From an uncultured Verrucomicrobiota bacterium (GTDB lineage Bacteria; Verrucomicrobiota; Verrucomicrobiia; Limisphaerales; UBA9464): a stretch of 57,698 nucleotides of DNA. The position numbers and the translations under genes were made by a program. Shown here in pieces: positions 33,858-46,456 of the stretch (within the stretch, counting starts at the first letter, position 1; each line of letters opens with the position of its first letter). The stretch lies in assembly GCA_903842505.1 (NCBI GenBank), contig CAIMMI010000096.1, positions 1-57,698 of the forward strand, read 5' to 3'. The notes under the pieces are model-generated. The model was not told the origin of the DNA. It did not search any database and was given only the letters and a program-made list of their open reading frames with translations.

Positions 33858-33918
33858 CGTCACCGACTCTTCACCTGTGCGACTTGTGGGAGTCTTTTTG
33901 GGTTGGCTCAGTACCGGG

Positions 33919-35841
33919 ATGCAAAAGGGGTCTTTCGGGCGCGCGGGTTTGGCTGTGCTGTGGATGGCGGGGGCAGTTTCCGTGCAGGCACAACTGGCCA
34001 TTACTGAAGTTCATTCGGCGGCGTCCACCAACGGCACGGTGGCCATTCACGCGGACTGGTGGGAATTGACGAACTTCGGAAGCCAGCCCGTCGATTTGAC
34101 CGGCTACCGATTCAACGACGCCACGGGTGGTCTGGCGACCGGTGCGATCGTGTTGCCCTCGCTGACGTTGATTCCCGGGGAGTCGATGGTCTTCGTTGAG
34201 GCCATTTCTGCAGACGCGTTTCGTGAATGGTGGGGGTCTGCCCTGCCGGCAGGCGTCCAGATCTTCAGCTATACGACGAACAGCATCGGACTCAGTTCGA
34301 GCGGGGATTCGGTCCGGGTCTGGGATGCGGATGCGACCCAGGATGCTGATGTTGTGGACTCGGTTGATATTGGGTCCGCCGCTGGGAATGGGGCCACGTT
34401 CGTTTACGATCCGGCGAGCGGTGCGATGAGTCGGAGGCCGGTCCTGGGTGACGCGGGAGTTTTTGCTGCGGCCGACAACGGTGACCTGGGGTCGCCGGGC
34501 AGCGGGGGGGAGACGGCGCCGGTTGGAATCATCACGCAACCGTCCGATCGCTCGGTGAATCCTGGGGATACCGTGCAGTTCGCAGTGGTCGCGAAAGGGT
34601 TGCCCCGTCCCCGGTTTCAATGGGCGTACAAAGGGGTCAACCTTCCGGGTGCGACCCAGTCGACATTGACCCTGACGAATGTCGGAGTCGGAACGGTCGG
34701 GGCTTATTCGGTCACCCTGAACAACGGCTTTGGAACGTTGAAGAGCCGCGATGCCGTCCTGTCGCTGGTTGAGACCCCTCAAGCACCGGTCATCACGATC
34801 TCCCTCACCAATGTTTCCGTCCTGGCCGGAGGAACGGTGAGCCTGGTTGCTGGGGCATCGGGTGTGCCACAGCCGACTTTTGAGTGGAGCTTCAAGGGTG
34901 GGGTGATTCCCGGCCAGACGGGTTCGACCCTGACGCTCTCCAACCTCACGGTCGCCGCGGCTGGGGAGTATGTGGTTCGGGCCAGCAATGCTTCCGGATC
35001 CCAATCTTCCGCGGCAGTGCTGACGATCCGGGCGAAGCCCGACCTGCGGATCACCGAGGTCCGGTCGACGGACACGCTGGACCCCGACTTCTCGCGGAGG
35101 AACGGCTTTGCGCCTCAGGATTGGTTTGAGGTGACTTCGTTTGAATCCGGGTCGGTTTCGCTCAAGGGGTGGAGGATTGATGACAACAGTTCCAGCCTGA
35201 CGGCAGCATTCGCCCTGACGAACGACGTGTCGATTGCGCCTGGGGAGTCGGTGATCTTTGTGGAGCGTCTGACTCCCGAGCAGTTCCGGACGTGGTGGGG
35301 TACCAATGAGCTTCCTGCGGGGCTCAAGATCTTTACCTACTCTGGCAGCGGATTCGGACTGAGTTCCGGGGGCGATGGCGTCCGTCTCTGGGATTCGACC
35401 ACCAGCAACAATGCCGACACCGTTTCGTCCGTGGATTTCCCGGCGGGGACTGCAGGCGTCACGTTCAATTACGATGTGGCCGCGGGGAGTTTCGGGGGAT
35501 TGAGCGTGGAGGGGGTTGGTGGTGTTTATCAGGCTCCCGGGAGCATTGATCGCGACTTGAACCTGACCGTGAAGGATATCGGTTCGCCGGGTCGTATCCG
35601 TGCGGGCGGGGTGGTTGTCCCGCCAGCGGCGCCGACGCTTTCCATCGGGTTGGAAGGGGGGCAGTTCGTGGTCCGGTTCACTGGGCAGGCGGGTTATACG
35701 TATCGGTTCGAGCGTCGGCGGACGCTGGGCGCGGGCGACTGGCAGTTCGTGGAGCAGAAGGCTGGAGAAGCGGGTTCCATGACCTTCGTGCCGGGGGTTT
35801 CCTCCGAGGATACCGCACTCTACAGGGTGGTGGTTCAATGA
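33919..35841 (+). CDS. Secreted protein with two lamin-tail domains and Ig-like domains
   Basis: This 640-residue protein begins with a signal peptide (about 1-25, [20 protein letters not shown] then SVQA). The first lamin-tail-like domain (about 25-185) and the second (about 370-555) are related copies: both contain GES(M/V)(V/I)FVE, REWWG/RTWWG, LPAG(V/L)(Q/K)IF and a GLSS-GD-VR-WD block. Between them are two Ig-like modules (about 205-290 and 295-375), each ending in [12 protein letters not shown] or [10 protein letters not shown]. The C-terminal 60 residues are a beta strand-rich tail. The ATG at 33919 is chosen because it gives the signal peptide. It is probably a surface or matrix protein. 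Its stop overlaps the pseudopilin start. Confidence 0.85.
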
Positions 35842-36629: not shown

Positions 36630-39011
36630 CTAAGCGGGTCCGAATTCAATCCGGACGGGTTCATGCCCTGCGGCAACCTCCACGGCCAGCAGTCGGTCTT
36701 CGGGGAAGCGCATGACGTCGGCGGGTGCCCCGTTCAAAGTGACACGGGCCGCGCGGTGCACATCGTGGAGGATCACCCTCCAGGTGCGGACCTGGGAAGG
36801 GTACTTGCCGGTGGCAGCGCCGATCTCGAGTCCGAGGCGGCGGGACTGTCGTTGCAGTCTGATCCTGCGGCGGTGCCAGTTGCCCGATTCGTACGACTGG
36901 GTCGTTCCGTCGTCCTCGTACCAGTCAAACCCCTCGTTGACCCCCGGCCAGACGTTCAGCGTCACCGTCGATAGATCCTGCATTCCCGAGCACTGAGCCT
37001 CCTCGATGAAGGGCAGGATCGCACCTCCCCGGACGAACACGGGAATGTGGTCCAGGCCACTGGATGCGAGGTGGTGCTGCCCTCCGGTCAGGCGGGCATC
37101 GGTCCAGAGGTCATACCACGCGTCATTGGGGAGATAGACCGCCCGGGCTTCCGAGCCCTGTTCCAGGATGGGCGCGACGAGGAGGTCGCGTCCTACCAGG
37201 AACTGATCGCCGCGTGCGACAGCCGTCGGATCATTGGGATAGTGCCAGAGGAGCGGACGCATGATGGGTGCGCCGGTGGTGTGGGCCTCTGCGGCGAGGG
37301 AGTAGAAGAGTTGGAGGAGTTGGTAGCGTTGCTGGATGACCTGGCGTGCGATGCCCTCGGCGCGCGGGCCGAATGCCCAGGGTTCGTGAGGCAACGTCCC
37401 CACGTTCGAGTGGCCACGGAAGAAAGGGGTGAAGGCCGCCAATTGAAGCCACCGGATGAAGAGTTCCGGCGTGGCGTTGTCGAGGAATCCGCCGGCATCG
37501 GCACCACAGACTGGAAAGCCGCTGAGGCCTAGGTTCAGCAGCATCTGGATGGAGTCGCGCAGGTGCTCCCAGTTGGAAGAGTTGTCTCCGGTCCAAACCA
37601 CGGCATGGCGTTGGCCTCCGGCGTAGGTGGAACGGGTGATGACGAAGGGACGGGCTTCGGGGTTGGCAGTCAGTGCTCCGTCCCGCGACGCGCGGGCCAT
37701 CTGCATGCCGTACAGGTTGTGCACGGTGGCGTGGAGAGCGGTGCCGAGGTCGGTGTGGTGGACGGAGTCGGATGGCAGCGTCTTGTCCGGGCGCGCGAAA
37801 TTCGCGGGCTCGTTCATATCGTTCCAGAAACCGGCGATGCCGACTCGCTGGAGCGCGGCCTGTTCACGTCCCCACCATTCGCGGGTGGACGCCTTCAGGA
37901 AATCCGGGAAGCGGGACTTGCCCGGCCAGACTTCGCCGATGACGTCGGTCTTGCCATCGGGCTGTTTGACGAAGGCGTCGGCGGCGATGCCGCGATTGCA
38001 GACGGGAAAGTCGGGGTTGTCCTGAACGCCGGGATCGACGATGGCAACGACCTGAAAACCGTCCTTGGCCAACTGCCGGAAGAGAGTCGCCGGTTTTGGG
38101 AAGCTGCGGCCAAAGGTGAAGACCCGATAGGCATCCATGTGATGGATGTCGAGGTAGAGGGCGTCGCAGGGGATCTGGCGTTTGCGAAACCCGGTTGCGA
38201 TCTGGCGGAGTTCAATCGCGGATTCGTAGCTATACCGGCATTGATGATAACCGAGACCCCATTTTGGAGGCATTGGTGCCCGGCCAGTCAGTTGCGTGTA
38301 CTGCCGGGCGACGTCGGCAACCGTGGGGCCGGTGCACAGGTACAGGTCGATGTCACCGGAGTCCGCCTGGAGGGTCCAATGGTCGGGCTTCGACTGACCC
38401 ATGTCCCACGATTGGCGGGCTGGGTTGTCCCAGAACAGACCGGCGGCGCGGCCGTCCCGGAGCGAAAGGGCGAAAGGGACGGAGACGTAGAGGTTCCGCA
38501 GGGACGGGTGGATCGTGGGCGAGTGTCCGAGGACGTCGATGTTCCAGAAGTCGCGGATCAGGCCGCGCTTGTTGAAGGAGCCGGAGCTTTCGCCGAGGCC
38601 GAAGAGTCCCTCCCGTTCGTGGAGGGCCAGGGTGAGGCGGGGTTGGGTCCCTTCGAAGCCCATGGCTCCCGGAAGCCCGCGAAAGAGTTCGAGGCCTGCT
38701 GCGGACAGGTGCCAGCCGCCATCGGGGAGTGAGAACTCAAAAACGGCTTCGGGTGTCTGAAGGCTTGCGCGGCCGCGGTTGACCCGGGTCGTGGCGGGGT
38801 TGCCATCTCGCGGTTGGTTGAGCACAGCCCAGGAGCCCTTGGGGGCAGCCGCGGGATCGTCCTTGGTCGAAGTAACCCGCAGGCGTAGGACGCCTGGAGC
38901 TACCGAGCCCACTTCAACCCGTCCGAAGCGATTGGATAGAATGAGGGAATCAACCGTGGTGGCCGACGAGTGGAGTCTCGCGAATCCCTGGAACCGAGCC
39001 TTCGCCTTCAT
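36630..39011 (-). CDS. Glycoside hydrolase family 31 (alpha-glucosidase-like)
   Basis: This retaining glycosidase of 793 residues belongs to GH31, which includes alpha-glucosidases, alpha-xylosidases and 6-alpha-glucosyltransferases. The nucleophile is Asp398 in GFWNDMNEPANF and the acid/base is Asp476 in VVWTGDNSSNW. The N-terminal beta domain (about 15-225) carries EREGLFGLGES. There is no signal peptide, so it is likely cytoplasmic. It lies 12 bases after the cupredoxin gene on the same strand, last in the candidate sugar operon. The exact sugar cannot be read off; alpha-glucosidase activity is the default. Confidence 0.93.
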   Translation of the reverse strand: MKAKARFQGFARLHSSATTVDSLILSNRFGRVEVGSVAPGVLRLRVTSTKDDPAAAPKGSWAVLNQPRDGNPATTRVNRGRASLQTPEAVFEFSLPDGGWHLSAAGLELFRGLPGAMGFEGTQPRLTLALHEREGLFGLGESSGSFNKRGLIRDFWNIDVLGHSPTIHPSLRNLYVSVPFALSLRDGRAAGLFWDNPARQSWDMGQSKPDHWTLQADSGDIDLYLCTGPTVADVARQYTQLTGRAPMPPKWGLGYHQCRYSYESAIELRQIATGFRKRQIPCDALYLDIHHMDAYRVFTFGRSFPKPATLFRQLAKDGFQVVAIVDPGVQDNPDFPVCNRGIAADAFVKQPDGKTDVIGEVWPGKSRFPDFLKASTREWWGREQAALQRVGIAGFWNDMNEPANFARPDKTLPSDSVHHTDLGTALHATVHNLYGMQMARASRDGALTANPEARPFVITRSTYAGGQRHAVVWTGDNSSNWEHLRDSIQMLLNLGLSGFPVCGADAGGFLDNATPELFIRWLQLAAFTPFFRGHSNVGTLPHEPWAFGPRAEGIARQVIQQRYQLLQLFYSLAAEAHTTGAPIMRPLLWHYPNDPTAVARGDQFLVGRDLLVAPILEQGSEARAVYLPNDAWYDLWTDARLTGGQHHLASSGLDHIPVFVRGGAILPFIEEAQCSGMQDLSTVTLNVWPGVNEGFDWYEDDGTTQSYESGNWHRRRIRLQRQSRRLGLEIGAATGKYPSQVRTWRVILHDVHRAARVTLNGAPADVMRFPEDRLLAVEVAAGHEPVRIEFGPA

Positions 39012-39023
39012 GGGTGACGTCGG

Positions 39024-39638
39024 TCAGCGCGCTGCGGGAGTATAAGCAGGGTTTCCGCCGAGTTGCAGGCTGGGCAGCTTGGCCTTGTCCGAGACTTCCA
39101 GGGCAATCCAATGCCCGTTTGCGGCATGGGACGGGAACCCGCAGGCGAAGGCGAAGTCGCCGGCCTCCGAGGCCTTGAAACGGAAGGTCTCGCCCTTTGA
39201 GCCGGTCGTGCCGCGGGTCGGGTTCGGGGAACTGCCGCCTTCGAAGGCGGGATCTCCCATCTGCAGTCGCTTGATCTGGGGACGCTCGACGACGACGACC
39301 GAGTGCGGTACCGGGCTGCGGTTGGTGAAGGACACCTCGATGTCTGCGCCGAGGGGGACGACGAACTTCGCCTGGCCCTTGGCGAAGCCGTTGAAATTCA
39401 TTCCGTAGTTGGCGCCATTGAAGGCCGAGATGAGGACGATGCGCACCTTTTTCCCATCCGGGGAGAGGCTCAGGAAGTCCTCGGCCTTGGGAGGGGCTTC
39501 ATTGGCTGGCGGCGCCGGGTGGTTGGTGTGGGCATCGTGGTCGGCAGCCGCCGTTCCCTGGGCGTTCACGATCGTGAACGCCCAGAGGAGCGCGGTGGTG
39601 GCCAGCGCCCAGATGGAGTGGGAGGACTTCGCGTGCAT
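39024..39638 (-). CDS. Exported cupredoxin (sulfocyanin/azurin-like) with altered axial ligand
   Basis: This 204-residue protein has a signal or anchor segment (about 8-27), a His/Pro-rich linker (33-50) and a blue-copper domain. Likely ligands are His112 in PVPHSVVVVE, Cys166 and His171 in FACGFPSHAANGH. The position for the axial Met (five after the second His in sulfocyanin and rusticyanin) is His176. Such a change would alter the copper site and lower its potential. It lies 55 bases after the sugar dehydrogenase and 12 before GH31, so it may carry electrons from the PQQ enzyme. The start at 39638 is preferred to 39680. Confidence 0.82.
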   Translation of the reverse strand: MHAKSSHSIWALATTALLWAFTIVNAQGTAAADHDAHTNHPAPPANEAPPKAEDFLSLSPDGKKVRIVLISAFNGANYGMNFNGFAKGQAKFVVPLGADIEVSFTNRSPVPHSVVVVERPQIKRLQMGDPAFEGGSSPNPTRGTTGSKGETFRFKASEAGDFAFACGFPSHAANGHWIALEVSDKAKLPSLQLGGNPAYTPAAR

Positions 39639-39693
39639 CAGGAGGGCGCGAGGTTGAGTGAAACCGATCGGGACTGCCACCGGGGAATCGTTC

Positions 39694-41040
39694 TTACTCC
39701 AACGGTGCCGTCACGGCGCCGGCGGGGACCTGGTCGGCCGGGACGAGCTTCCAGAGGCTGCCGCGGGCATTCTGGGCGGGATCGGCGGGCCCTCCGTAGT
39801 TGGCGTGGGCATCCGTGATGTAGATCGTTCCGTCCTTCGATTGACCGGCCCCGGTGAACATCAGCTTGGTATCGAGCAGTTCCTGCATCTGCCACTTTCC
39901 AGCGCCGTCCCGGGCCAGACCCCACAGCTTGCCGGAGCCCCAATCGCCGGTGAAATAGACGCCATCCATGGTCGGGTACTTGGTGCCGCGGTACACGCCG
40001 AAGCCCATGACACAATTTCCCTGATCCACGTGGGAGTATTCGGCAATCGGCATTTCACCGACCCGGGGCGCGTCCTTGACGGCATCCAGCTTCGGCTTGC
40101 CGGATTCGTCGATCGGGAGCGGGAATGGGTAGGTGCCGCACATGAATTTCCATCCGTAGTTCAGCCCGCCTTTGCCGGCCGGTTGGAAATCGATTTCCTC
40201 GAAGTGATTCTGTCCGATGTCGGCGATGTAGAGGTCACCCGTCTTCGGATCGAACTGGAACGACCAGGGGTTACGCAGTCCGTAAGCCCAGATCTCGGGT
40301 CGGGCGTTGGGATGGATCTTGTTGAAGGCCTCTTCGGAAACTCCGAAGAGCTTCATCTGCATCAAGGGCGTGAGGAACGGGTTATCCTTCGGGATCGCAT
40401 AGCCGCGATCGCTGCTCGGATGATCCACATCGACCCGAAGGAGTTTTCCGAGGAGTGAGGAAAGGTCCTGTCCGGCGCCGAGGACATCGCCTTCCCAGCC
40501 GCCATCGCCGCTGCCGATGTACAGGTAGCCGTCCGGGCCGAAAGCGATCTCACCGCCATTGTGGTTGGCGTAGGGACGGGCCATCTGCATGACCACCCGC
40601 GCCGACTCCGGATCGGCCCGGTCCGGGTTCTTGTCGGAAACCTTGTACTCGACGATGAACGACGCGCCGTTGAACCACATGTCCGAATAGTGGACATAGA
40701 ATTTCCCGTTCTCGGCGAACTTCGGGTGGAACTCGAGGTCGTACAGGCCCTGTTCGAGGAATGAGCTGACCACCGTGTCGTGGATGTCGAGGAAGGGCTT
40801 GTCGGCCGTCTTCCCGTCCTTGACCAACCGGACCACGCCGGTCCGCTCGCAGACGAACAGCCGGTTTGAGCCATCCGGGGCGGGGGTGACCCGGACTGGA
40901 TCCACGAACCCCGAGGCCACCTGCACGAGGGACACCTTGAGGGGCTTGGGCAGTTTACCGCCGGGTGTGGCCGTGTTGTGGGTGGGCGCTGCCGAGACCG
41001 ACAGGGCGGCGAAACAGGACAGGAACCAATGTGATTTCAT
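39694..41040 (-). CDS. PQQ-dependent sugar dehydrogenase (GSDH/sorbosone family)
   Basis: This 448-residue protein has a signal peptide (about 1-18) and a six-bladed quinoprotein propeller of the soluble glucose/sorbosone dehydrogenase family. Family motifs include LEFHPKFAENGKFYVHYS, IGSGDGGWEGD, the block IWAYGLRNPWSFQFD (with the Arg near PQQ) and ADIGQNHFEEIDF. It oxidises sugars or polyols in the periplasm. PQQ synthesis genes are not in the window. Its ATG overlaps the stop of the upstream small protein by one base (TGATG), so it is coupled to the transporter genes. Substrate: unknown. Confidence 0.9.
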   Translation of the reverse strand: MKSHWFLSCFAALSVSAAPTHNTATPGGKLPKPLKVSLVQVASGFVDPVRVTPAPDGSNRLFVCERTGVVRLVKDGKTADKPFLDIHDTVVSSFLEQGLYDLEFHPKFAENGKFYVHYSDMWFNGASFIVEYKVSDKNPDRADPESARVVMQMARPYANHNGGEIAFGPDGYLYIGSGDGGWEGDVLGAGQDLSSLLGKLLRVDVDHPSSDRGYAIPKDNPFLTPLMQMKLFGVSEEAFNKIHPNARPEIWAYGLRNPWSFQFDPKTGDLYIADIGQNHFEEIDFQPAGKGGLNYGWKFMCGTYPFPLPIDESGKPKLDAVKDAPRVGEMPIAEYSHVDQGNCVMGFGVYRGTKYPTMDGVYFTGDWGSGKLWGLARDGAGKWQMQELLDTKLMFTGAGQSKDGTIYITDAHANYGGPADPAQNARGSLWKLVPADQVPAGAVTAPLE

Positions 41041-41177
41041 CAGGGCTTGGGTGTGGTGGTTGAATGGGTATGGGAAATCTGGAAGAGGGGCAGGGCCTTC
41101 TGGACCGAACGGGTGACACCCCATGCAAGTGGGAGGCTCACCAGCAGCCATGCGAGGGCGACACGCAGTGGTTTCAT
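41040..41177 (-). CDS. Small single-pass protein associated with OFA-type MFS transporter
   Basis: This 45-residue protein, MKPLRVALAWLLVSLPLAWG then VTRSVQKALPLF and a polar tail, has one hydrophobic helix. It resembles the short MFS transporter small subunits annotated directly after oxalate/formate antiporter genes in many bacteria. Its start overlaps the transporter stop by four bases (ATGA) and its stop overlaps the next start by one (TGATG), so all three are translationally coupled. Function unproven; stabilisation of the transporter is a reasonable guess. It is too short for routine gene callers. Confidence 0.8.
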   Translation of the reverse strand: MKPLRVALAWLLVSLPLAWGVTRSVQKALPLFQISHTHSTTTPKP

Positions 41178-42523
41178 ACGACGGCTCCTTCCTTCAGGTG
41201 ATGCCGGACGTCCACCGGGCGTATGAGCAGGTTGCAGATGCATCCTATGACCAGGACGCCGGCCATCAGGTAGAGCGTTGGATGGTATGCCTCGGACTTC
41301 GGTACGCCGGCGGCCTTGCGTGCGGTCGAGAGGTAGTTGACCAATTGGGGCCCGACCAAGGCAGCGAACGACCAGGCCGTGATGAGACGCCCGTGGATGG
41401 CCCCGACCTGATGCGTGCCGAAGACATCGCGGAGATAGGCTGGGATCGTGGCGAATCCTCCTCCGTACATGGAGATGATGAGCGCGGTCACCCCGACAAA
41501 AAGAGTGTGCTGACCGGTCCGTTGGGTCCACGGAAGCACGGCGTAAAGTGCGGCCCCGGTGAGGAAGTAGACGCAATAGATGGCCTTCCGGCCGGTCTTG
41601 TCGGACAACGACGACCAGAGGAACCGTCCGCCCATGTTGAAGATGGAAAGAAGACCGGCGAATCCGGCTCCGACGGTAGCATTGACCCCAAACATGTCCT
41701 GACACATGAGCGAGGCCTGTCCGAGGATTCCGATCCCGGCGGTAACGTTCAGGGCGAGCACACACCACAGCAGCCAGAATTGAGGCGTGGTCCAAGCCCG
41801 GTCCACGCCGACCGCGAAGCGGGCTTCGGTGGCCACGTGGTCCTTGGTCTGAGCATGCTCGGGTCTCCAACCCTTGGCGGGCACCCGCACCGTCGCGGCG
41901 CCAAATACCATGAAGCAGGCGTAAACCATGGCCATGACGATGAAGGTCTCGGCCACCCCGGTGGTGGCGGGACTCCTGAAGACGCCCATGAGTTCCTGGC
42001 CCAACGGAGCGCCGATCAAGGCCCCGCCTCCGAAGCCCATGATCGCGAGTCCGGTGGCGAGTCCGGGCCGATCGGGGAACCACTTCATCAGGGTGGATAC
42101 GGGGGCAATGTATCCCAAGCCCAGGCCGATCCCGCCGATGAATCCATACCCGAGGTAGACGAGCCAGAGTTGGTGCACGGCAACGCCGAGTGCCGAGACC
42201 AACAACCCTCCGCAGAAGCATGCGGCACTCGCCAGCATCGCGCAGCGTGGGCCACGCCGTTCGACCCATTTGCCGAGGACAGCAGCCGAAAGTCCCAGCA
42301 TCACCAAGGCGATCGAGTAGATCCATCCGACCTGCGGAATCGTCCAGTCGGCGCCCGCGGTGGGTGCCGTGATGCCGAGGATGCGGGTAAGCGGTTCATT
42401 GAAGACACTGAACCCGTACACTTCACCGATGCAGAGGTGCACCGCCATGGCCGCTGGCGGCACCAGCCATCGAGTGAAGCCGGGTCGGGCAACCACAGCC
42501 TCCGGTGAAAGATACGAGGGCAC
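41174..42523 (-). CDS. OFA-family MFS transporter (oxalate/formate antiporter-like)
   Basis: This major facilitator of 449 residues has 12 hydrophobic segments and the OFA start: HLCIGEVYGFSVFNEPLTR, then WTIPQVGWIYSIALVMLGLS. The family loop GKWVERRGPR and LMKWFPDRPGLATGLAIMGF are also present. OFA members exchange oxalate/formate or other small carboxylates; the substrate here is not clear. It begins with GTG at 42523 and is followed by a coupled small protein and a PQQ sugar dehydrogenase. Repeat copy E lies between it and galE. A role in exporting a sugar acid made by that dehydrogenase would fit the context but is speculative. Confidence 0.92.
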   Translation of the reverse strand: MPSYLSPEAVVARPGFTRWLVPPAAMAVHLCIGEVYGFSVFNEPLTRILGITAPTAGADWTIPQVGWIYSIALVMLGLSAAVLGKWVERRGPRCAMLASAACFCGGLLVSALGVAVHQLWLVYLGYGFIGGIGLGLGYIAPVSTLMKWFPDRPGLATGLAIMGFGGGALIGAPLGQELMGVFRSPATTGVAETFIVMAMVYACFMVFGAATVRVPAKGWRPEHAQTKDHVATEARFAVGVDRAWTTPQFWLLWCVLALNVTAGIGILGQASLMCQDMFGVNATVGAGFAGLLSIFNMGGRFLWSSLSDKTGRKAIYCVYFLTGAALYAVLPWTQRTGQHTLFVGVTALIISMYGGGFATIPAYLRDVFGTHQVGAIHGRLITAWSFAALVGPQLVNYLSTARKAAGVPKSEAYHPTLYLMAGVLVIGCICNLLIRPVDVRHHLKEGAVV

Positions 42524-45187: not shown

Positions 45188-46456
45188 TCACGCGAGGTAG
45201 GGAATGGTGAGCGGACCTTGAGGCAGGACCGCCACGCGGGCATCGGCCGGGAGGCGGGAGAGTTCCTCGCGGACGAGGGCGCCGATGTCCGGGCAGGGAT
45301 CGAGGTGGGCAGCGCGCAGGGTTTCCGGGGCGATGGACGAGTAGACGCGGACTCGGGCGCGGCGCTGGATGAGGGCTTGGATCTGGGCCTGCCATTGTTC
45401 GGGTCGGACAAATCCCGGAGTAGCGAGGAGCGTGAGGATTTCCTCGGGCGAGGAGGCTTCGCGCAGCAGTTTGTCGAGCGGGCTGCCGGCGGGGACCCCC
45501 TCGCGGCATTCGGCGGCAAGGATGAGGAGTCCGCCTTCCTTGAGGACGCGGGCGCCAGCGCTCATGCCCTTGACACCCTGGTACAGGTTTTGGTCCAGGG
45601 GATACCCGGAGTTCGTGGTGACCACGATGTCGAAGGGGGCCTCGACGCGCTGCATGGCGGAGGTGCGGACGAATTCGCGACCCTGACGGTGGGCGGTGAC
45701 GAGATCCCCTGCGAAGACGCCGGTGATGTCGCGGCGTTCGTTGAGGGTGACGTTGAGGAGGAAGGTGGGACCCGCACGGAGCGCGATGTCGCGGAGTTCT
45801 TCCCAAAGGGGGTTGCCTTCGCAGATGCCGAAGGTGGCGCGGGGGTCGCCGATGTTCCCGGCCCCGTGATTGCTCATGACGGTCTCGACGTGGGCGACGC
45901 CGGGCATGATCCCCTTCGGACCGCCGCTGAAGCCGGCGAAGAAGTGAGGCTCGATGAAGCCGGTGACGATGCGGAGGTCGGCTTCGACGCAGTGGCGGTT
46001 GATCCAGGCGGGGGTGCCGGTGCGGGTGGTGCCGAGGGCGACGCAGGCCTCGTGGGATTCGGGTTCGTGGTTCAGGACGCGGTACTGGGCGACGACCTCG
46101 GGGGTAAGCATGCGCTCGAGCTCGGCCTGCGTGTTGGGGCGATGCGTGCCGAGTTGGTTGAGGAGGGTGATCTGGTCGCGCTCAACGCCGTGGGCATGGA
46201 GGTATTCCAGCAACCAAGGGATGATGCGGTGGTTGGGAGTGGCGCGGGTGATGTCCGTGAAGAGGATCGTGATCCGGGCGCCGGGGCGGAGGGCGTTGGC
46301 CAAGGGCGCAGACCCCATGGGATGGGCGAGCGCGTTGAAGAGGGCGCCCTTTTCGTCCGGCAATCCGGCGCGGTGGGCGGGTTCGATGACCTGGGTGCGG
46401 CCGTCCGGGAATTCGACATCCAGGACGCCTTGTCCGTACGCGAGAGAGACCTTCAT
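45188..46456 (-). CDS. LarA-family (nickel pincer) racemase/epimerase
   Basis: This 422-residue protein is related to LarA, the lactate racemase with a nickel-pincer nucleotide. The cofactor signature is GFIEPHFFAGFSGGPKGIMP, with His171 and Lys181 matching His174 and Lys184 of L. plantarum LarA. Asp68, Arg71, His105 (in GTHRP) and His197 match the other catalytic positions, all shifted by three. LarA homologues act on various hydroxy acids, so lactate is not assured. The cofactor-making genes larB, larC and larE are not in the window. It lies downstream of lpd across a hairpin. Confidence 0.9.
   Translation of the reverse strand: MKVSLAYGQGVLDVEFPDGRTQVIEPAHRAGLPDEKGALFNALAHPMGSAPLANALRPGARITILFTDITRATPNHRIIPWLLEYLHAHGVERDQITLLNQLGTHRPNTQAELERMLTPEVVAQYRVLNHEPESHEACVALGTTRTGTPAWINRHCVEADLRIVTGFIEPHFFAGFSGGPKGIMPGVAHVETVMSNHGAGNIGDPRATFGICEGNPLWEELRDIALRAGPTFLLNVTLNERRDITGVFAGDLVTAHRQGREFVRTSAMQRVEAPFDIVVTTNSGYPLDQNLYQGVKGMSAGARVLKEGGLLILAAECREGVPAGSPLDKLLREASSPEEILTLLATPGFVRPEQWQAQIQALIQRRARVRVYSSIAPETLRAAHLDPCPDIGALVREELSRLPADARVAVLPQGPLTIPYLA

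Follow-up and report, generated by a model that had tools for sequence, protein, structure and literature searches.

A conserved four-gene unit in Verrucomicrobiota combining a predicted monocarboxylate carrier, a GSDH-fold propeller and a cupredoxin with an unusual predicted copper site

Gene layout at the locus and in relatives

The stretch of DNA analysed here (the window; contig CAIMMI010000096.1, 57,698 nucleotides) belongs to an uncultured Verrucomicrobiota bacterium (Limisphaerales; UBA9464), whose assembly (GCA_903842505.1) comprises 5.2 Mb over 362 contigs. We focus on a minus-strand gene group encoding a carrier of the major facilitator superfamily (MFS), a 45-residue small subunit of this carrier, an exported propeller of the glucose/sorbosone dehydrogenase (GSDH) fold, and an exported cupredoxin, next to which lies a GH31 alpha-glucosidase-like gene. 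The first four genes constitute a conserved unit that is real, with a predicted copper site that is unusual and a chemistry that is unproven.

The carrier gene (41174-42523; GTG start; MFS_1 domain, 114.1 bits) is the first member of the unit and its product, of the SfMCT/OFA type, is predicted to transport small monocarboxylates. It overlaps by four bases (ATGA) with the small-subunit gene (41040-41177), which in turn shares one base with the gene of the propeller (39694-41040; ATG at 41040), a protein resembling hedgehog-interacting protein (HHIP) and aldose sugar dehydrogenase (Asd) and predicted to be a periplasmic oxidoreductase. The rusticyanin/sulfocyanin-like cupredoxin (39024-39638; predicted ligands H112, C166, H171, and axial H176) follows after 55 bases, and the GH31 gene (36630-39011; PF01055, 388.7 bits), whose product is predicted to be cytoplasmic, after another 12 bases. 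An open reading frame check found all five frames open at these coordinates and bore out the arrangement given in the original prediction, including gene order, strand, the overlaps of 1-4 bases, and both gaps. A promoter scan revealed no promoter-like site, and predicted terminators did not exceed the level of shuffled sequences.

We searched 50 genomes of the same family (completeness 54-97%) for GSDH and recovered an orthologue group of 64-95% identity, well separated from the listed paralogues (35-47%), in 31 of them, with the window's own genome and fragments included in the count. The other 30 genomes holding an orthologue provide 31 family loci; one of these genomes (G028) carries two copies of the carrier-small subunit-GSDH-cupredoxin set on two contigs (L057 and L058). 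Carrier, small-subunit and GSDH genes lie in line at 21 of the 31 loci, the carrier and small-subunit genes are inverted and placed downstream of the cupredoxin at five, and no MFS gene is present inside the available stretch at the remaining five. At all 26 loci showing a carrier gene the small-subunit gene adjoins it, and the cupredoxin gene adjoins GSDH at 28/31 (27 complete, one cut off); at L055, L056, and L062, where no cupredoxin was seen, the contig stops within the GSDH gene. The shared order of the first four genes goes beyond what chance would produce. The tight overlap between the small gene and GSDH is not general, as tblastn matches are ~35 to 200 bases apart at in-line loci, the true gaps being smaller than measured because small-gene matches are often partial; the two genes abut at L032 and L062.

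The original prediction had joined transporter, oxidase, copper carrier, and glycosidase into one operon and suggested a search for the same order in relatives. This order was kept for the first four genes but not for GH31, which adjoins the cupredoxin gene at a single family locus besides the window (1/31; L032, genome G042). Named genomes were also scanned with a cupredoxin profile, and the best 80 of 85 relatives were kept; here too, GH31 lies beside the cupredoxin at one of the 80 loci, some stretches ending near the cupredoxin. This locus (L067) is again from G042 and located on the same contig as L032, where the five genes form a tight array as in the window. Among the nine genomes of the genus, the GH31 orthologues of G038, G039, and G040 are found on other contigs. 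The N-terminal hydrophobic stretch of the GH31 protein is weaker than those of the propeller and the cupredoxin and provides no clear export signal, which, together with the loss of linkage, makes it unlikely that an exported glycosidase supplies a periplasmic oxidase. In the pathway proposed initially, GH31 would free a sugar, a pyrroloquinoline quinone (PQQ) dehydrogenase would oxidise it, the cupredoxin would take the electrons, and an OFA antiporter would exchange the resulting acids. While the tight arrays of the window and G042 are in line with such a pathway, we consider it very improbable given the linkage data, the GH31 N-terminus, and a carrier that is nearer to SfMCT than to OxlT; what we take to be the second basic residue of OxlT falls on a Trp of the carrier when aligned by eye. 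A five-gene unit including GH31 was rejected on linkage: transporter, GSDH-fold protein, and cupredoxin are conserved together, and GH31 is a local neighbour outside the module.

Several other neighbours were recorded. In the window, a gene of the LarA (lactate racemase) family (45188-46456) lies 2.7 kb away from the carrier gene and shares its strand. Positions 33877-35841 encode a protein in which lamin-tail and Ig-like stretches each occur twice, and the next protein has an N-terminal methylation motif. In one genus, the cluster is followed by genes for FAD synthetase and a 3-keto-disaccharide hydrolase family protein, among others. A 3-keto-disaccharide hydrolase family gene (L039:11409-12110) and an altronate/galactarate dehydratase family gene (L037:6758-8329) close to the cluster each give a weak hint of sugar or sugar-acid chemistry. 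No substrate-hinting neighbour was seen to recur over the family, with only ten neighbours scanned against Pfam.

Distribution and co-occurrence beyond the family

The best 80 of 85 cupredoxin relatives are all Verrucomicrobiota by title, and the module appears to be restricted to this phylum, as far as searched. GSDH is encoded upstream on the same strand at 56 of the 80 loci; with start codons chosen by us, the two genes are 12-443 bases apart at the 53 of these 56 linked loci where the gap could be measured. An MFS homologue lies within the stretch at 45 of the 56 linked loci (28 upstream on the same strand, 11 downstream on the opposite strand, five downstream on the same strand, and one upstream on the opposite strand). 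At L135, L136, L143, and L145, the MFS protein encoded upstream of GSDH is merely 37-40% identical to that of the window and the small subunit was not found; a different member of the superfamily may have replaced the usual carrier there. The 24 remaining cupredoxin loci (L089, L090, L097, L103, L105, and others) have no GSDH gene in the examined stretch, which is short in some cases, and 22 of these genomes hold a GSDH orthologue elsewhere (split across two contigs in one of them). Several of the unlinked cupredoxin genes stand beside genes that we named by eye as sigma-factor, vWA-like, and Mrp-like; these neighbours offered no functional clue.

Co-occurrence was also assessed in an even draw of 286 genomes of the class, with the cupredoxin called at E 1e-10 or better and the GSDH orthologue at >750 bits. 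The cupredoxin is present in 16 of the 286 genomes and the GSDH orthologue in exactly those 16, so that the two were found together in every sampled class genome having either, and the cupredoxin was found without GSDH in two of the 24 further genomes described above. Three additional class genomes have GSDH matches of 273-297 bits and are without cupredoxin. The carrier is found in 15 of the 16 pair-holding genomes and in six of the remaining 270. These associations correspond to Fisher p values of 1.6e-26 (cupredoxin-GSDH) and 2.3e-19 (MFS), uncorrected for ancestry, and misses are possible in these searches because at most 11 (cupredoxin) or six (GSDH) first-look candidates were scored per genome. 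Given that the order is rearranged while the company is kept, and that GSDH and cupredoxin also co-occur when encoded apart, e.g. on separate contigs in G283, we consider function rather than mere synteny to hold these genes together. That the MFS carrier, its small subunit, the GSDH-fold protein, and the cupredoxin form one conserved unit with three functions is well supported.

The carrier and the copper protein

The carrier narrowly misses the NF049980 model of the SfMCT L-lactate carrier (311.6 bits against a cut-off of 320) and stays well under the cut-offs of both oxalate/formate models. Its best phmmer match is SfMCT (82.8 bits), followed by OxlT (71.7 bits); the OFA-type transporter of the original prediction is an MFS carrier of the SfMCT/OFA type that scores higher against SfMCT than OxlT. 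Excerpts of PMC6573034 name Y119, N276, and R280 as lactate-binding residues of SfMCT. These match Y138, N296, and R300 of the carrier, and the same residues are present in every relative spanning the positions (41, 43, and 43 of the 45 loci hit). The proton-binding H250 of SfMCT corresponds to Gln269. Taken together, the best match to SfMCT and the conserved Tyr-Asn-Arg triad make the protein a likely small-monocarboxylate carrier. The 45-residue membrane protein has one hydrophobic stretch; with 46 bits against the NF047966 cut-off of 24, it is a member of a named family ('MFS transporter small subunit') and not a new feature.

These results also bear on a lactate- or pyruvate-type carboxylate system, in which the MFS protein would carry lactate, and GSDH and cupredoxin would oxidise or sense a carboxylate-linked compound instead of a sugar. 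The near-threshold SfMCT score, the full carboxylate triad, and the co-occurrence of the genes are compatible with this idea, whereas the substitution of H250 and the missed NF049980 cut-off are not easily reconciled with it, and we know of no GSDH-fold enzyme that oxidises lactate. We regard such a system as unlikely.

The cupredoxin matches PF06525 (SoxE/sulfocyanin; 56.9 bits, cut-off 21) and falls short of both equivalog models, TIGR03094 and TIGR03095 (sulfocyanin 48.1 vs. 168.4 bits; rusticyanin 19.4 vs. 146.7 bits). Its AlphaFold model is good (predicted local distance difference test, pLDDT, 85.1), and rusticyanin is the top match of this model by Foldseek. VIA-align also places rusticyanin first (Z 12.2, root-mean-square deviation 3.1, 121 aligned residues), where rows within 1 are tied and the ties include chains of nitrite reductase and two-domain laccase. 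The phmmer alignment sets His176 on the axial Met148 of rusticyanin. A His occupies this position in 28/28 distinct family cupredoxins (27 extracted via GSDH plus that of the window) and in 16/16 class hits, seven from genomes shared with the family set and nine new, the class profile itself having been built from His-bearing sequences. All predicted copper ligands are invariant in 43/43 cupredoxins of the genome-contig scan, a set whose axial-His count is biased because one of the two search patterns contained GHW. Two extra N-terminal His residues, H34 and H37, are invariant in an 18-row set, and only H34 reaches 90% in the 43-row set. What the analysis shows is the identity of the genes, their conserved linkage and co-occurrence, and the conservation of the predicted copper ligands of the cupredoxin and of the carboxylate-binding residues of the carrier.

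According to excerpts of PMC4059628, Met is the usual axial residue of such sites and Gln a possible one; the title of its reference 20 states that the azurin variant Met121His gives a type-1.5 site. His176 is predicted to bind copper; possibly, the invariant Met80 is the true axial ligand instead. With His in place of the axial Met, a type-1.5 copper site is predicted, and the protein would be a green copper carrier of probably lower potential. Our searches of the open-licence PubMed Central (PMC) literature gave no paper that reports a natural axial-His cupredoxin by title or abstract.

The propeller, a possible oxidation route and known systems

The propeller belongs to the GSDH family by its PF07995 score (126.5 bits, gathering cut-off 25). 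It remains far below the NCBIfam model TIGR03606 (46.7 vs. 434.55 bits) and below TIGR02604, the PVC-type haem-binding protein model (30.9 vs. 122.2 bits). Residue numbers refer to the frame 39694-41043 and positions were not taken from the structural model. In soluble glucose dehydrogenase (sGDH), the relevant Arg and Asn residues are Arg228, Asn229, and Arg406, of which Arg406 contacts a PQQ carboxylate. In a profile alignment (hhalign) to Asd and sGDH, H161, R257, and N258 fall on the catalytic His144 and the PQQ-binding Arg228-Asn229, and all three are invariant in 27/27 distinct GSDH sequences. The roles of the catalytic His and the PQQ-contacting residues of sGDH are those given in excerpts of PMC6881789.

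As a whole, the module is best explained by a route, which we favour tentatively and at slightly less than even chances, in which the GSDH-fold protein oxidises a periplasmic compound and reduces the cupredoxin, and a related monocarboxylate is transported by the carrier. The exported propeller would oxidise a small polyol, a sugar, or a related compound outside the inner membrane, most likely using environmental PQQ, as in E. coli Asd, or else working without PQQ. Electrons would pass to the co-inherited axial-His cupredoxin, which would feed the respiratory chain, and a monocarboxylate, as product or partner, would cross the inner membrane through the carrier with its small subunit. Enzyme activity, cofactor, substrate, electron transfer and its direction, the type of copper site, and the transported compound with its direction are points that we infer.

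Several observations weigh against this route. The closest solved relative of the propeller is HHIP rather than a PQQ enzyme, both by sequence (131.6 bits with the single sequence, ~146 bits with a profile) and by Foldseek, which ranks HHIP before Asd and sGDH (E 9.5e-26 vs. 3.0e-16 for the best PQQ enzyme); the model used is moderate (pLDDT 67.7). The match to Arg406, which was located by eye with the Asp-Gly downstream of it as anchor because the hhalign alignment has gaps there, is Met395 in the window and eight relatives (9/27) and Arg in the other 18 distinct sequences, a clade-specific difference that may reflect a shift in cofactor or substrate. In the ungapped match, the place of Lys377 is taken by Gly369, with an invariant Lys372 three residues away, and there is no Arg at the Arg408 match. 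Regarding linkage, 11 of the 56 linked loci are without an MFS gene (L119 and L120 have >6 kb per side, the others end nearby), the class genome G486 holds the cupredoxin-GSDH pair without the carrier, and no GSDH orthologue was found in the cupredoxin-bearing genomes G537 and G541. Finally, neither PqqC (0/50 family genomes, with 14 control genomes also lacking a match) nor PqqE (0/50 over the cut-off) was detected. As to the residues, excerpts of PMC6881789 describe a fungal AA12 enzyme that has no Lys377 and in which a different Arg substitutes for Arg408.

The PqqC model itself works, scoring above its cut-off in 6/288 genomes of the phylum. Eight phylum genomes match PqqC at any score and none of them is among the 16 pair-holders, although inclusion of non-family pair-holders in the sample was unchecked. 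The PqqE result says little because matches below the cut-off occur in all 50 family and all 14 control genomes. We rejected self-made PQQ on the basis of PqqC, which was found in none of the 50 family genomes. E. coli, the host of Asd, likewise depends on external PQQ (excerpts of PMC6881789), and by analogy PQQ could be scavenged here. Given the HHIP-like fold, the changed Arg406 match, and the Pqq genes not found, the 'PQQ sugar dehydrogenase' of the original prediction stands as a family label, while PQQ-dependent sugar oxidation by this protein is unproven.

The main rival emerges from the same data. HHIP is the Hedgehog-binding ectodomain protein of animals and is non-enzymatic, and the propeller might similarly be catalytically silent and bind the cupredoxin or a metal, in which case the unit would handle copper or a ligand and the carrier would import a metal-carboxylate or a monocarboxylate. 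In addition to the HHIP resemblance, the PQQ genes not found, and the Met in the window clade, this explanation could accommodate the extra N-terminal His residues of the cupredoxin. However, the invariant equivalents of the catalytic His and the Arg-Asn pair, the Arg406 match kept in 18/27 sequences, the complete Cys-His-His redox core of the cupredoxin, and the carboxylate triad of the carrier speak against it, and we consider it possible yet doubtful. Returning to the oxidation route, its most specific version, i.e. a Verrucomicrobiota-specific system in which an HHIP-like propeller without self-made PQQ reduces a single-domain cupredoxin that would be the first natural one with an invariant axial His, accompanied by a monocarboxylate carrier, seems to us rather unlikely in all its parts; in the window clade, such a redox pair would have a changed PQQ pocket and perhaps another cofactor.

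For Verrucomicrobia, our searches of the open-licence PMC literature gave no paper describing this gene set by title or abstract. If correct, the favoured route would be a kind of periplasmic oxidation not described before, in a large phylum in which the cupredoxin relatives found here come mostly from metagenome assemblies, and it would bear on the function of bacterial HHIP-like GSDH proteins. Two carriers of the module, Brevifollis gellanilyticus NBRC 108608 and Verrucomicrobium sp. BvORR106, appear to be cultured because their titles are not labelled as metagenome-assembled genomes, which makes the module testable.

Compared with known systems, the propeller has the GSDH fold and the equivalents of His144, Arg228, and Asn229 in common with E. 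coli Asd (YliI, 2g8s) and Acinetobacter sGDH (1c9u), to which the fold match gives sequence identities of 20% and 14%, respectively. In contrast to both, it has Met at the Arg406 match, no Arg408 match, and a conserved cupredoxin partner. Its best relative by sequence and fold, HHIP (2wfx, 3ho4, 7pgm), is an animal protein, whereas the window propeller is bacterial and exported, and its gene lies next to that of a copper protein. The carrier shares its carboxylate triad with SfMCT, the Syntrophobacter lactate carrier (6g9x), and differs from it by Gln in place of H250, a score below the equivalog cut-off, and linkage to the GSDH-cupredoxin pair. Similarly, the cupredoxin has the fold and the C-x4-H-x4 loop of rusticyanin and sulfocyanin (SoxE), yet misses both equivalog models and carries His176 where rusticyanin has its axial Met148. 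While the axial His of azurin Met121His was engineered, that of the window cupredoxin occurs naturally and does not vary in the sets examined, providing a natural His-axial protein for comparison with the engineered type-1.5 site.

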